DNA of 64,000 bases, from contig NZ_JAFIDJ010000002.1 in NCBI RefSeq assembly GCF_017051705.1, positions 268,384 to 332,383 of the forward strand. The letters run 5' to 3'. The translations under genes were made by a program, and so were the position numbers. Under the pieces are notes generated by a model that ran no database searches, was not told the DNA's origin, and saw nothing but the letters and a program-made list of their open reading frames with translations. Source of the stretch: Algoriphagus lutimaris. Lineage in GTDB: Bacteria; Bacteroidota; Bacteroidia; Cytophagales; Cyclobacteriaceae. Positions within the stretch are counted from its first letter, which is position 1. Each line of letters starts with the position of its first letter. Of this stretch, positions 1-4,618 are shown piece by piece.

Positions 1-335
1 AACGGCTACTGATTCTGACCAACCTGATAAAAAAGGGGATTTGATTGACGATTCAACTGCACCATCAGACAAAACAGATGCACCACCAAGTGATACTGAA
101 AACAAGCATTCTGAGGAAGATCAATCAGATATAAATAAGGATACAGCTAATCAATTAATGGTAGAATCAGCAACAGAAGAGGACTCATCCGTTAATAAAG
201 ATAAAACGGCTACTGATTCTGACCAACCTGATAAAAAAGGGGATTTGATTGACGATTCAACTGCACCATCAGACAAAACAGATGCACCACCAAGTGATAC
301 TGAAAACAAGCATTCTGAGGAAGATCAATCAGATA
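1..335 (+). repeat. 204-bp in-frame tandem repeat
   Basis: Bases 1-131 and 205-335 are identical; the first difference is t132 versus c336. The period is 204 bp, exactly 68 codons. More copies may lie left of the window. Near-perfect identity at the DNA level points to recent duplication or ongoing homogenisation. Confidence 0.9.
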
Positions 336-418
336 CAAATCAAGAAGTAAAAAAAGCAAAAGCTAAAGACCCGATTTCTGGTAACAAAAATGGTACTCTC
401 CCAATTTTTCCAGAATAA
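2..418 (+). CDS. C-terminal part of an acidic repeat protein
   Basis: The reading frame is open from the window edge, so the true start lies upstream. The visible 138 residues are extremely hydrophilic (Asp, Glu, Ser, Thr, Lys, Pro), with no membrane segment and no recognisable catalytic motif, and look intrinsically disordered. They contain two copies of a 68-residue unit that starts TATDSDQPDKKGDLIDDST; the second copy runs into a short unique tail ending in LPIFPE. I do not recognise the family. It could be the disordered tail of a mobilisation or surface protein, but nothing in the visible part shows this. Confidence 0.6.
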   Translation, partial: TATDSDQPDKKGDLIDDSTAPSDKTDAPPSDTENKHSEEDQSDINKDTANQLMVESATEEDSSVNKDKTATDSDQPDKKGDLIDDSTAPSDKTDAPPSDTENKHSEEDQSDTNQEVKKAKAKDPISGNKNGTLPIFPE

Positions 419-621: not shown

Positions 622-2475
622 ATGAGTAAACTAAGCAATAAAATTGAAGCCCACGACCGATCTATTTCAGAAGTATTGGACGATAAAAAGTATACAGTAG
701 ATTACTTTCAGCGTGAATACAAATGGGAAGAACGGCACATTGAACAATTGGTTTCTGACTTAACTTCTTCATTCCTGAATGAATACAAGCCTGAGCACAA
801 AAGAAAAGATATAGAGAACTATAATTCCTACTATTTGGGTCCTTTTGTAGTGAGTGTCAAAGATGGACAACGCAGTATTATTGATGGACAACAACGACTC
901 ACATCTCTTACTTTACTTCTGATCTACTTGAACAACCTTCAAAAAGAACTTGGAATAAATGAAAAATTAGAATCCCTCATATTTTCAGAGAAGTACGGCG
1001 AAATGTCCTTCAATATTCAAGTAGATGAACGCATTGCCTGTATGGAATCACTTTTTAAGTCAGGCGAATATGAACAAAAAGAAACGGATGACGAGTCTAC
1101 GTTAAATATGGCAAGTCGCTATACTGATATAGAAAATGCTTTTCCGGAAGAAATAAAAAATAGTGTGCTTCCCTTCTTTATTGATTGGTTGAAATACAAT
1201 GTTGTGTTAGTGGAGATCATTGCCTATTCAGATGAGAACGCCTACACTATTTTTGAAACAATGAATGACCGGGGTCTAAATCTTACCCCAACAGAAATGC
1301 TAAAAGGCTTCATTCTATCGAAATTTGAAGACAGTAAAAAGCGTCAAAAAGCAAATGAACTTTGGAAATTATCTATGCAGGATCTTCATGCCTTTGATAA
1401 AGACGAGGATCAACGCTTTATACAAGCCTGGTTTAGAGCACAATATGCGGAAACCATCAGACCAGGAAAGGCGGGTTCAAAAAACGAAGATTTCGAGAAA
1501 ATAGGTACCAGGTTCCACAGTTGGTTCAGAGACAATTTAGACAAAGTTGATATCGAACAAGACGACTCAGAGGGATTTCAGCTTTTTATTGATCGGGACT
1601 TCAAATTCTTTTTTAATGCCTACAAGCACATTTTATCGGCCGAACGTAAACTAAATGAAAAACTTCAACACGTTTTCTATATTAAAAGATGGGGTATTGC
1701 AAATTCGCTTAGTTATCCATTGCTACTTTCTTCATTGAAAACAACAGATAATTCTGAAATTGTAATGGAGAAAATAGATTTAGTCGCTAGATATATTGAA
1801 ACATTCGTTGTTCGAAGATCTGTAAACTTCAGGAAGTTTGCTTCAAGCTCCATTCGGTATACTATGTACACTTTAGCTAAAGAAATTAGGAGAACCGAAG
1901 TACACGAACTCAAAGCTGTATTAAAGAGAAAATTGAATGAAATGGAGGAATCTTGGACAGGTGTTCAAAATTTCCGTTTGCACGGTCAAAATAGGGTTTT
2001 TGTGAAGTTCTTACTTTCAAGAATTACATCCTATGTGGAACAGCAATCAGGTTTCAATTCATCATTTGAAAAATACTATCATAATCCAGGAGGAAAATCC
2101 TTCGAAGTAGAGCACATCTGGGCAGACAAATATTTCAACCACCAAGATGAATTTGAACAAGAATACGAATTTCAAGAATATCGTAATAGAATTGGTGCCC
2201 TGGTGCTTTTACCAAGAGGAACAAATCAATCTTTCGGTGCAAAACCATATAGTAAGAAGTTGAGTCATTATATTAAAGAAAATTTGTTGGTTCAAAGTCT
2301 TTGCCCGCTTACATATCAGAACAACCCAAATTTCATTTCGATGAAGAATAAATTAGCCCTCCCCTTCAAGGCTCATGAAGAATTTAAAAAGGCTGACATC
2401 TCAGATAGACAAAAGCTGTATCAGGCCATCTGCGAATCAATTTGGGGTATAGAAATTTATTTTTATGAGAATTAA
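622..2475 (+). CDS. DUF262/DUF1524 GmrSD-like nuclease
   Basis: The 617-residue protein has the two-part layout of GmrSD-type (type IV) restriction enzymes in one chain. The N-terminal DUF262 (ParB-like) part shows Q30-R-E-Y-K-W, YYLGPFVV at 70-77 and the DGQQR motif at 88-92; in this family that half binds and hydrolyses nucleotide. The C-terminal DUF1524 part has an HNH-like nuclease signature: EVEHIW with E497 and H498, then N522 in NRIGALVLLP and N535 in TNQSF. All expected key residues are present, so the protein looks intact. The ATG at 622 has no upstream in-frame rival. The last 11 bp overlap the ATPase gene, so the two are probably translated together. No methyltransferase lies nearby, as expected for modification-dependent or abortive defence. 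The target is unknown. Confidence 0.85.
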   Translation: MSKLSNKIEAHDRSISEVLDDKKYTVDYFQREYKWEERHIEQLVSDLTSSFLNEYKPEHKRKDIENYNSYYLGPFVVSVKDGQRSIIDGQQRLTSLTLLLIYLNNLQKELGINEKLESLIFSEKYGEMSFNIQVDERIACMESLFKSGEYEQKETDDESTLNMASRYTDIENAFPEEIKNSVLPFFIDWLKYNVVLVEIIAYSDENAYTIFETMNDRGLNLTPTEMLKGFILSKFEDSKKRQKANELWKLSMQDLHAFDKDEDQRFIQAWFRAQYAETIRPGKAGSKNEDFEKIGTRFHSWFRDNLDKVDIEQDDSEGFQLFIDRDFKFFFNAYKHILSAERKLNEKLQHVFYIKRWGIANSLSYPLLLSSLKTTDNSEIVMEKIDLVARYIETFVVRRSVNFRKFASSSIRYTMYTLAKEIRRTEVHELKAVLKRKLNEMEESWTGVQNFRLHGQNRVFVKFLLSRITSYVEQQSGFNSSFEKYYHNPGGKSFEVEHIWADKYFNHQDEFEQEYEFQEYRNRIGALVLLPRGTNQSFGAKPYSKKLSHYIKENLLVQSLCPLTYQNNPNFISMKNKLALPFKAHEEFKKADISDRQKLYQAICESIWGIEIYFYEN

Positions 2476-3970
2476 AAAAGTTGAAATAAAGGATTACAAA
2501 GCATTTTACGGTAAGAATGAGTTCAGTGTAGATGGTAAAAACCTGTTTATCTATGGTGAAAATGGTAGTGGTAAGAGTTCTTTTTACTATGCTTTAAAAG
2601 ATTTTTTCCAGTCTTCGACTGAGGTCTTAAATTACAATGAAACCGAAAACATTTTCCTTACAAAAGCTCAAAAAGGTAAAGGCTATATCGAAGTAACCTT
2701 CAATCCTGATAAGGATGGAACAGCTTCCGATAAAAAATATTTTTTAAAGAAAAGCTCGAAAAACACCTATGTAGCAGGAGATACAAGTATTAGGGATGCT
2801 ATCAAGCTAAAAAGCTTCCTTACTTATAAACACCTTCTAGGTATTCATTCGATCAAAAAGGATAAGGAAATAGACCTATTCGATTTGCTGGTAAAAGGAG
2901 TACTAAAGCATTTTAAAAGTATAGCTATTACTGGCAGTAAAGAATTAGGAGAGCTTTGGGAAGATGTTGAAAAAGCAATATCCAAACAAACTGAAGGAAC
3001 GGCTTACAATATCACTCAAAAGAAAACTGATGTTCAAAAGACAATCAACGTTTTTGATACAGCATTCAAGAAACTCTTTGCTGAAAATAGTATTGAAAAC
3101 ATTCTAAAATACGCCCAACCTATTTTGGACAAATTTGGCCACAACATTGAATTGAAACTAAATTACACCCAAGCAAAGCCAACACTAGATTACAAATCGG
3201 TTGAACGCAATCATGTTAGAGTCAAGATCAAATTTCTAGGCAAAGAGATTGATAAACCGCATATATTTCTGAATGAAGCAAGACTTTCTGCAATTGCCAT
3301 TTCTATTTACCTCGGAATGGTAAAAAGGCATATTCAGGGAATACCTTGCAAGGTTCTATTTCTGGATGACATCTTTATTGGTTTGGATATATCCAACAGA
3401 TTACCGCTATTAGAAATACTCAGAACGGACTTTACCAACTATCAGGTATTTATCACTACTTACGACAAGCCGTGGTATGAATTTGTAAAAACCAATTATT
3501 TACACAATAACAATAACTGGAAATGCTTTGAGATTTATGCAGGTCGATCCAAAAAGGGATTCACAATTCCAGTAGTAAAGGAAATAAAAGCCCGAGGAAA
3601 TAATGACCATTTAGATTACTACATTCAAAAGGGAGAGAATTATCATAATTCTGGAGACAATAAAGCTGCGGGGGTCTATTTGCGTTCAGCGTTTGAAGCA
3701 ATTTTAAAGCAATTCTGCTTTGGAAAAGTTACTGTGAAATTTGTGGTGGATCAAAGTAAACTTACAGCAAATGATTTTTGGACTGCCACAAAAAACCATA
3801 GCACTGCAAATACAAGATTAACACAACCAACAGTGAGTGAAATTGATAATCTCATCCCTTTGGTCTTGAACCCTCTCAATCATAATGACATTAACAAAAA
3901 CGAACACAGCATTGAGATAGGAAGAACGATTAGAGTACTTAAAACCTTAAAAACAGAACTTAGGGTTTAA
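2465..3970 (+). CDS. SMC/RecF-like AAA ATPase, nuclease partner
   Basis: This 501-residue protein starts with a RecF/SMC-type N-terminal strand pattern and Walker A GENGSGKSS (31-39). An ABC-signature-like stretch LNEARLSAIAISIYLG (269-284), Walker B LFLDDIFIGLD (298-308) and an H-loop position TTYD (331-334) follow. The middle (about 140-230) is helical but short, so there is no long SMC coiled coil. Residues 380-501 form a separate helical domain (YIQKGENYHNSGDNKAAGVY, then NPLNHND) that looks HEPN- or DUF4145-like; that assignment is tentative. The start codon lies inside the nuclease gene. ATPase-HNH pairs are a recurring defence design (Septu, for example), but here the partner is DUF262/DUF1524. 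Inferred role: sensing or gating the nuclease. Confidence 0.8.
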   Translation: MRIKKVEIKDYKAFYGKNEFSVDGKNLFIYGENGSGKSSFYYALKDFFQSSTEVLNYNETENIFLTKAQKGKGYIEVTFNPDKDGTASDKKYFLKKSSKNTYVAGDTSIRDAIKLKSFLTYKHLLGIHSIKKDKEIDLFDLLVKGVLKHFKSIAITGSKELGELWEDVEKAISKQTEGTAYNITQKKTDVQKTINVFDTAFKKLFAENSIENILKYAQPILDKFGHNIELKLNYTQAKPTLDYKSVERNHVRVKIKFLGKEIDKPHIFLNEARLSAIAISIYLGMVKRHIQGIPCKVLFLDDIFIGLDISNRLPLLEILRTDFTNYQVFITTYDKPWYEFVKTNYLHNNNNWKCFEIYAGRSKKGFTIPVVKEIKARGNNDHLDYYIQKGENYHNSGDNKAAGVYLRSAFEAILKQFCFGKVTVKFVVDQSKLTANDFWTATKNHSTANTRLTQPTVSEIDNLIPLVLNPLNHNDINKNEHSIEIGRTIRVLKTLKTELRV

Positions 3971-3976
3971 AAGCTT

Positions 3977-4019
3977 ATAATCAGATTTATAGTTATTTTT
4001 AGTAAACCAATCTGATTAT
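3977..4019. promoter_or_regulatory. 11-bp inverted repeat over a start codon
   Basis: ATAATCAGATT (3977-3987) and its perfect complement AATCTGATTAT (4009-4019) are separated by 21 AT-rich bases. The right arm includes the first two bases of the terminase-like gene's ATG. It could be an operator or an RNA hairpin that hides the start codon. There is no T-tract, so it does not look like a terminator for the ATPase gene. Confidence 0.5.
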
Positions 4020-4479
4020 GAAACAATCATCTAAAATCAATTGCGAGGAGTCACATCTTTCCGACAAGGAACTAAGATTTGCCAATTATTACTTAGGCGA
4101 AGCAAATTTAAACGCTACAGAAGCAGCCAAACTTGCAGGATACAGCCCAAATACTGCACGACAACAAGGCTCTAGGATGTTGACAAATGTTAACATTAAA
4201 AAATACATTCAATCCAAATCCTCCGAAATACTAGAAAGTATAGGAGTCACCCAAGAAAAGGTTTTAGCAGAAATCGTAAAAATTGCATTCGCTGATATTA
4301 CTGATTTTTTTAATGATGATTGGAGCCTTAAACAAGTAAGCGAAATTCCAAAAGAAAAATCTGCAGCAATAAAATCTCTGAGAAAAACTGAAACAGGTGT
4401 TTCAATCCTAATTCATGATAAAGAAAAAGCTCTTTCACTTCTTTGGGAATTGGTAAAAGATGATGCCCCAACCCGATAA
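4018..4479 (+). CDS. Phage terminase small subunit-like protein
   Basis: The 153-residue protein matches the terminase small-subunit layout (Terminase_2 type). An N-terminal helix-turn-helix reads NATEAAKLAGYSPNTARQQG at about 29-48, then a central helix pair (VTQEKVLAEIVKIAFADITDFF), then a short C-terminal part ending in a KEKALSLLWELV helix. In phages this subunit recognises the packaging site and works with the large terminase ATPase. Here there is no large terminase, portal or capsid gene, so it is an orphan, either a prophage relic or a DNA-binding protein reused by the element. It follows the ATPase gene by 47 bp and carries its own inverted repeat at the start codon. Confidence 0.75.
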   Translation: MKQSSKINCEESHLSDKELRFANYYLGEANLNATEAAKLAGYSPNTARQQGSRMLTNVNIKKYIQSKSSEILESIGVTQEKVLAEIVKIAFADITDFFNDDWSLKQVSEIPKEKSAAIKSLRKTETGVSILIHDKEKALSLLWELVKDDAPTR

Positions 4480-4541: not shown

Positions 4542-4545
4542 TTAG

Positions 4546-4618
<73 letters not shown>

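Follow-up and report, generated by a model that had tools for sequence, protein, structure and literature searches.

The window analysed here, a stretch of 64,000 nucleotides from Algoriphagus lutimaris, carries close to its left edge a gene for a GmrSD-like nuclease that overlaps the gene for an SMC/Rad50/RecF-like ABC ATPase, and the first-pass annotation, made from the window alone, put the two forward as a candidate for an undescribed defence system. Comparison with related loci leads to rejection of a stand-alone pair: the constant partner of the ATPase is a DNA methyltransferase encoded upstream, and not the GmrSD. Methyltransferase and ATPase, mostly together with a helicase, form a core that is conserved across many phyla, and the genes placed beside the ATPase are swapped between loci. 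The pair is probably the 3' end of a restriction-like helicase-methyltransferase-ATPase operon, in which the GmrSD would be an embedded accessory directed against phages with modified DNA that escape the core. The initial proposal therefore stands in one part, a defence-type locus on mobile DNA with its catalytic motifs intact, and falls in the other, a stand-alone two-gene system. The genes on which the argument turns are the following, the L029 coordinates referring to the stretch G000:C8:250000-269900 of the window genome (G000).

622..2475, + strand: GmrSD-like nuclease (DUF262 + DUF1524/HNH), 617 amino acids (aa), from its open reading frame (ORF) and Pfam
2465..3970, + strand: SMC/Rad50/RecF-like ABC ATPase with a helical C-terminal region, 501 aa, from its ORF, Pfam and a structural model
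2465..2475, + strand: overlap of the nuclease and ATPase genes, 11 bp, from the ORF coordinates; the same in the relative L050
L029:6197-9442, same strand as the pair: PLD(HKD)-SNF2 helicase, 1081 aa (Pfam PLDc_2, SNF2-rel_dom, Helicase_C)
L029:9445-13032, same strand as the pair: type IIG-like N6-methyltransferase, 1195 aa (Pfam Eco57I, TaqI_C)

The window begins inside the operon, whose upstream genes are found in L029, all on the same strand as the pair. The first-pass annotation had stated that no methyltransferase is nearby; the methyltransferase gene ends 5.35 kb left of window base 1 and, since the window edge cuts the operon, its absence was an artefact of the cut. The best PADLOC model for this protein is a type IIG enzyme (6.8e-265) and an NPPY motif is found at position 717, while the helicase carries a HAK motif at position 157.

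A methyltransferase homologue was found by BLAST beside the ATPase in all 13 loci fetched from related genomes, with one gene in between in L016 and a weak match (4.9e-8) in L023, and the helicase was found in 11 of them, L023 giving no match and L026 reaching a contig end. A scan of GTDB contigs added the best 80 of at least 258 confirmed relatives, which weights the sample to nearer relatives and brings it to 93 loci, or 92 distinct ones after one identical ATPase had been dropped, the window not being counted. Methyltransferase and helicase were sought within eight upstream genes on the same strand, at most about 10 kb away, and counted in the 74 distinct loci that have 8 kb or more of sequence upstream. 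In 73 of the 74 loci the methyltransferase lies within these eight genes, in 60 of them immediately before the ATPase; 44 have a match to the PLD-SNF2 helicase profile. The core occurs in Bacteroidota, Chlorobiota, Pseudomonadota, Planctomycetota, Cyanobacteriota, Fusobacteriota and others, with a helicase-less form in Poribacteria. Eight Poribacteria loci (L066, L073, L080, L081, L082, L084, L092 and L123) share the same uncharacterised 189-aa gene after the ATPase and gave no PLD-SNF2 helicase upstream, L092 having no upstream sequence; they are a distinct variant of the core.

The GmrSD behaves differently from the methyltransferase. Of 245 sampled genomes of the family, 13 have the ATPase and 20 the GmrSD, the window genome counting in both, and only four genomes (G000, G001, G104 and G205) hold the two together at an E-value of 1e-10. 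The first-pass annotation had let its proposal depend on the two genes occurring together in other genomes, and this is rare: a GmrSD-type gene directly adjoins the ATPase in 8 of the 92 distinct loci, a figure that may miss more distant members, as the GmrSD profile was home-made and seeded partly with the genes counted. The GmrSD lies downstream of the ATPase in L018, L021, L025, L076 and L086, upstream in L050, L070 and L074, and within four genes of it in L058 and L087; where at least 2.5 kb is available on both sides, it is adjacent in 7 loci of 70 and not in the other 63. A methyltransferase in 73/74 loci against a GmrSD in 8/92 is the comparison on which the stand-alone pair is rejected. 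Nevertheless, the adjacency of the GmrSD recurs independently, which is unlikely to be without meaning. On a tree of 84 ATPases (the window's and those of 83 of the 93 loci, after sequences shorter than 440 or longer than 670 aa and matches weaker than E 1e-60 had been dropped), built by a quick search with support only from the Shimodaira-Hasegawa-like approximate likelihood ratio test (SH-aLRT), the adjacency label needs seven changes, at least six of which are forced by well-supported branches.

The slot into which these genes are placed lies between the methyltransferase and the ATPase or just after the ATPase, and its contents vary by locus. Between the two core genes are found the GmrSD (window, L050, L070 and L074), McrB-McrC (L051 and L085), SF2 helicases (L056 and L060), a Bro-N protein (L016/L065) and Schlafen-AlbA proteins (L055, L061 and L062, the methyltransferase side of L061 being lost to a contig end). 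After the ATPase, the slot holds GHKL/HATPase genes (L017 and L020; paraMORC-like is our own label), AIPR (L023), EVE with AAA_5 (L027), DUF4062 (L028), a DUF1016 nuclease (L057), UvrD-ankyrin proteins (L053 and L093) and, in five loci, the GmrSD. For some slot genes, the gap to the ATPase gene or the overlap with it is no more than about 20 bp; the McrC gene of L051 shares 4 bp with the start of the ATPase gene. A homologous 488-aa protein precedes the ATPase in L055, L061 and L062, and in the last of these Pfam recognises Schlafen AlbA_2 and HATPase_c_4 domains.

Swapping of the genes beside the ATPase is seen twice between near relatives. L051 resembles the window closely (helicase 85% and ATPase 70% identical) and has McrB-McrC where the window and L050 have the GmrSD, and L085, which groups with L070 and L074 on the ATPase tree, has a homologous McrB-McrC in place of their GmrSD. 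GmrSD and McrBC enzymes are described as sharing one role, the sensing and cutting of modified phage DNA (PMC12707154).

Relatives of the window GmrSD are also found where the ATPase is missing. In L147 a 39%-identical GmrSD sits inside a type I operon, in the order HsdM, HsdS, GmrSD, HsdR; L150 has a relative (30% over the N-terminal part) with HsdM and HsdR; and in L146 a 54%-identical GmrSD lies beside an N6/N4 methyltransferase and a ResIII helicase. The GmrSD thus appears as a portable module that joins restriction operons. In genome G121, a truncated ORF (L149:8638-8889) shares 91% identity over its first 54 residues with the beginning of the window GmrSD; it comes directly after another pair of Eco57I methyltransferase and SNF2-type helicase, and it looks like the leftover of a swapped slot gene.

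The two proteins of the window are much as the first-pass annotation had described them, a single-chain DUF262/DUF1524 enzyme with intact motifs and, 11 bp into its gene's end, an ATPase with Walker A, signature and Walker B motifs and a helical C-terminal part. The nuclease joins in one chain a DUF262 domain with (I/V)DGQQR and a DUF1524 His-Me nuclease domain, and thus belongs by sequence to the GmrSD family; it is the sole GmrSD_N match within its genome (GmrSD_N, E 1.5e-31, 110.5 bits against a cut-off of 33.2; GmrSD_C, E 1.6e-9, 38.2 bits against 23). Its motifs are Q30-R31, D88GQQR (IIDGQQR), F211ETMN and E497H498I; Q30, R31, D88-R92, F211, N215, E497 and H498 are invariant in seven aligned GmrSD proteins, and N535 and K546 are also conserved. 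The ATPase matches SMC_N above the cut-off (E 4.8e-14) and has the head-domain fold of its family, with Walker A G31ENGSGKS, a signature-like L269NEARLS and Walker B/D-loop FLDDIFIGLD. G31-K37, L269-A272, D301, D302, L307 and D308 are invariant among 12 aligned ATPases, and also among 37 except for S35 (90% or more). Residues 381-498 are modelled as helices, and the matches of a structure search with the whole ATPase model, among them the ATPase-HNH retron complexes 9n69 and 9kjx, cover mainly residues 1-382. The usual HEPN toxin motif is RX4-6H; the C-terminus of the ATPase has R407, E411, N469 and H473 conserved and, judged by eye, a motif of this type was discarded. The AlphaFold2 model of the GmrSD was poor (mean predicted local distance difference test score of 62, from 7 sequences), and the nuclease was compared with solved structures by sequence: in a search of the PDB, DndI (9JFL, E 2.2e-10) was the sole match of the nuclease at E 0.01, and the profile of the GmrSD family matches SspE as well.

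The nearest relative of the pair, L050, is found on a contig of a Bacteroidetes metagenome-assembled genome, with the GmrSD 89% and the ATPase 79-80% identical and with the gene order and the 11-bp overlap of the window. This overlap suggests translational coupling. Synonymous sites between the two loci are saturated or nearly so (proportion of synonymous differences, pS, 0.73 for the GmrSD and 0.82 for the ATPase), and the low ratios of nonsynonymous to synonymous proportions (pN/pS), 0.089 and 0.148 respectively, indicate purifying selection on both genes, which are therefore real and maintained.

The reading that we hold probable starts from the order PLD(HKD)-SNF2 helicase, Eco57I/TaqI_C methyltransferase, three further genes (HSP70-like, SF1 helicase and 585-aa protein), GmrSD and ABC ATPase. 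The methyltransferase would mark self DNA, and the helicase with its HKD nuclease, possibly together with a nuclease end of the methyltransferase, would attack DNA that is unmarked, while the SMC/RecF-like ATPase could serve as a DNA clamp or switch that licenses the attack. The GmrSD would then be an embedded type IV enzyme that cuts DNA carrying the phage base modifications by which the core is blunted, complementing the core as BrxU does BREX, and the 11-bp overlap may couple its translation to that of the core ATPase.

Several observations weigh against this account. All genes of the locus are known here from sequence alone. In 30 of the 75 loci with 8 kb or more upstream (the duplicate included), many of them from Poribacteria, the eight genes before the ATPase gave no PLD-SNF2 helicase, so that the helicase is not universal in the core; moreover, the methyltransferase profile is generous and could catch other N6-methyltransferases, and many Poribacteria loci combine a moderate methyltransferase match (about 1e-55) with a missing helicase, from which it follows that the class has variants. 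The slot genes are not all type IV enzymes, and for six of the eight GmrSD neighbours the relationship to that of the window is distant; L018, L070 and L074 have a type of 465-466 aa whose HNH domain is different. A physical partnership between GmrSD and ATPase would likewise account for the 11-bp overlap and its retention in L050, and DndI is described as sensing the phosphorothioate mark of its own operon and not a foreign one (PMC11662687).

This last point leads to an alternative in which the GmrSD recognises the operon's methyl mark, as SspE and DndI do phosphorothioate; on meeting marked self DNA its NTPase and nuclease state would shift so that unmarked phage DNA is nicked, which would make it part of the restriction arm of the core rather than its complement. 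The PDB match to DndI and the match of the family profile to SspE favour this view, and both proteins are described as lying beside a modification system and sensing its mark through an aromatic pocket (Y25 in DndI; PMC11662687). The window has F29 for Y25 of DndI, which carries little weight, as F or Y is found in all seven aligned proteins. A core in which 84 of 92 loci have no adjacent GmrSD does not seem to need one, however, and relatives of the window GmrSD turn up in unrelated type I operons, so that we consider the alternative unlikely. The ATPase could instead control whichever nuclease adjoins it, as PtuA does PtuB in Septu and in retrons, sensing the phage or an inhibition of the core and unleashing a backup effector. 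The neighbours that adjoin or overlap the ATPase gene speak for this, as do the several neighbours that are nucleases or genes of the abortive-infection type and the ATPase-HNH retron complexes among the structural matches, and BREX and BR (BREX-related) loci are described as recruiting OLD-ABC plus nuclease modules as backup (PMC12839542). The neighbour varies from locus to locus, however, while the methyltransferase is nearly constant, the similarity to PtuA is weak (1.1e-5 at best), and McrBC and SF2 helicases, which have an NTPase of their own, occupy the same slot; control of this kind seems rather improbable. A dedicated defence system made up of these two genes, GmrSD and ATPase, and no others would agree with their common strand, their overlap, their maintenance in L050 under purifying selection and at least six gains or losses of adjacency on the ATPase tree. 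It is nonetheless very improbable in view of the methyltransferase in nearly every locus and the rarity of an adjacent GmrSD, the more so as the gene order is reversed in five of the eight adjacent cases and L086 pairs a 54%-identical GmrSD with an ATPase of only 36% identity in the order opposite to that of the window.

The embedded-accessory reading can be extended, tentatively and with rather less confidence than an even chance would warrant, to an unnamed, widespread restriction-like class. Such a class would combine PLD-SNF2 helicase, IIG-like methyltransferase and SMC/RecF-like ATPase with a cargo slot at the start of the ATPase gene that exchanges GmrSD and McrBC, it would cover unmodified and hypermodified phages, and it may have spread on satellite-like elements carrying a terminase. 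The result corrects what was likely a false report of a new two-gene system and replaces it with a methyltransferase-ATPase core, mostly with a PLD-SNF2 helicase, and a swappable slot. Moreover, the exchange of GmrSD for McrBC in near relatives offers a testable case of embedded defence genes that cover phages unseen by the host operon. The embedding principle is already known from HEC-06 and BrxU, and the GmrSD of the window belongs to a known family.

Between the methyltransferase and the GmrSD, which are direct neighbours in L050, the operon of the window genome has three further genes.

L029:13150-18428, same strand as the pair: HSP70-like protein, SF1 UvrD-like helicase and 585-aa acidic repeat protein
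L029:16671-18428, ending at window base 44: ORF of the 585-aa protein, containing a masked stretch
41..418, + strand: ORF with acidic repeats, 72 residues of which are 92% identical to the tail of the 585-aa ORF

BLAST gave no homologue of these three genes in the other loci compared, and they are therefore treated as private cargo that is not associated with the core; within the 239 other genomes of the family sample, nothing related to the N-terminal 410 aa of the 585-aa protein was found. Read by eye, window positions 1-345 hold two near-identical coding repeat copies of about 200 bp with an acidic DSDQPDKKGDLIDDSTAPSD-type repeat, and Tandem Repeats Finder listed nothing in positions 1-700.

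Pair and operon lie inside an element integrated at a tRNA-Met gene, in agreement with the earlier remark that the pair sits with phage-derived DNA beside a tRNA.

L029:1644-2969, same strand as the pair: tyrosine integrase, from the scan of the upstream region
G000:C8:251442: left attachment repeat, 15 bp, just before the tyrosine-integrase gene
4018..4479, + strand: phage-type terminase small subunit (TerS; Terminase_2, 3.8e-33; PHROG 51, 4.2e-30)
4543..4557: right attachment repeat, 15 bp, at the 3' end of tRNA-Met
4545..4618, - strand: tRNA-Met, the integration target

The two repeats bound an element of about 21.48 kb (G000:C8:251442-272940). After the integrase follow, in order, a 200-aa protein without a match, a small excisionase-like protein, AAA_25 and a BT4734/primase-like protein, so that integrase, excisionase-like and primase-like genes occupy one end and TerS the other, next to the tRNA. 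TerS is the last gene of the element and lies outside the defence operon; no phage structural gene besides it was found among the element proteins scanned, and the layout resembles that of a phage satellite. To the right of the tRNA, the sister genome G646 has 95% identity; its sequence to the left of the tRNA is similar (75% over 111 bp) to that at and before the left repeat of the element, as expected of an empty site. The ATPase gave no match in the 8 congeners listed, in a search that did find the positive control G000, and the helicase was not found in six congeners including G646, in a search without a positive control. Of 234 other genomes of the family, 10 have a TerS relative. Among 11 further TerS loci, in which large terminase and capsid genes were not sought, 8 have TerS and a tRNA gene together within 19.5 kb, and in G195 a TerS relative stands about 0.5 kb ahead of the helicase in a further copy of the core (L018). 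A phage origin of the ATPase itself was set aside, as tblastn gave no match at 1e-5 in 50,697 phage records; at least three loci with the ATPase are found in IMG/VR, and five plasmid records carry it.

Among known systems, the closest parallels to the embedded gene are HEC-06 (Hma-embedded, in PADLOC) and BrxU (BREX), which likewise place a single-chain DUF262 + DUF1524 protein within an operon of the helicase-methyltransferase-ATPase type. HEC-06 models are the top PADLOC matches of the nuclease (8.3e-40, 1.3e-39 and 1.8e-36, judged by E-value and not by PADLOC's own score cut-offs), and one of them spans residues 1-555 of 617. HEC-06-type Hma-embedded GmrSD-like genes are described as working on their own and as giving antiviral activity when assayed (PMC11411939, PMC12988326), and BrxU, a GmrSD homologue, as restricting phages with modified cytosine independently of the adjoining BREX genes (PMC12707154), its part as a complement of BREX also being reported in PMC10952713. 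The host operon differs here, consisting of an SMC-like ATPase and an IIG-like N6-methyltransferase in place of Hma or BREX parts.

Hma, as described in PMC8565338, shares the three-gene logic of helicase, methyltransferase and ATPase, and has been re-described as a set of DUF499-centred BR systems (PMC12839542). The second BR type, according to the same source, likewise has an HKD-Swi2/Snf2 helicase and an N6-methyltransferase, a combination present in our locus. However, BR systems have a DUF499 AAA+ ATPase (with DUF3780 in type 2), and here the ATPase is a 470-660-aa SMC/RecF-like ABC protein. BR type 2 was rejected, since neither DUF499 nor DUF3780 gave a Pfam match in 12 locus proteins scanned, and so was Hma, the ATPase matching SMC_N and other SMC/AAA models and not DUF499, with no HmaC among the PADLOC matches listed; HmaA is a side match of the helicase (7.3e-25). 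The type of HmaB is disputed between 5-methylcytosine (PMC8565338) and N6 (PMC12839542), and the methyltransferase type was therefore left out of the comparison with Hma. The top PADLOC model for the helicase is the candidate 'HKD+Snf2' (C3a139, 2.5e-51), which covers the helicase alone and, by already listing this helicase type, counts against full novelty.

DISARM resembles the locus through DrmD (3e-35) and, as a helicase, DrmA (6.1e-18), and through DrmMI for the methyltransferase (4.6e-34); it was discarded, as the Pfam scans gave no DUF1998 and no DrmB or DrmC stood among the PADLOC matches listed. MADS comprises an eight-gene mad set, which includes a kinase. Among the PADLOC models, mad3 fits the ATPase best (3.4e-16), reaching 1e-10 or better in 7 of 12 aligned ATPases including the window's, and mad2 matches the methyltransferase (1.4e-16). 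These similarities are weak, and no other mad model was found among the matches listed for ten locus proteins, so MADS was not retained. A Ser/Thr kinase with FHA and TPR domains is encoded in L018 (L018:13638-15341), two genes past the GmrSD-HNH gene beside the core ATPase. Septu was likewise rejected, with PtuA models at the E-value given above and no PtuB among the nuclease matches listed.

Pbe (PbeABCD) has, as here, an HKD nuclease-SF2 helicase fusion and an ABC ATPase (PMC10853773), but it belongs to the phosphorothioate systems, whereas our locus has a DNA methyltransferase instead, and PbeC matches the ATPase at 1.2e-6. DndI, a DUF262 protein with DGQQR and HNH and the nearest solved structure by sequence, works with phosphorothioate marks as well, and no Dnd modification model was found among the matches listed for ten locus proteins. 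Two-component systems of the GmrSD type are described in TgvAB (PMC11411939) and in GrwAB of Vibrio cholerae, a two-gene system in which GrwA has DUF262 and DUF1524 (PMC12137116); GrwAB was dismissed because GrwB, as described there, carries another DUF262 domain and the partner here is an ABC ATPase. MORC and paraMORC restriction-modification operons contain SFII helicases (some with HKD), DNA methylases, HNH nucleases and AIPR genes (Iyer et al. 2008; PMC2292703), and GHKL-ATPase genes follow the core ATPase in L017 and L020; those operons are defined by GHKL ATPases and have mostly cytosine methylases, and no SMC/RecF-like core ATPase is described in the available text of PMC2292703. A name for the helicase, IIG-methyltransferase and ABC-ATPase core was not met among the PADLOC matches listed or in the literature searched, although it may have been described before. 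Each of the named systems fails here on a defining feature, and the logic of the core is that already known from Hma/BR, DISARM, MADS and restriction operons of helicase, methylase and ATPase described earlier.

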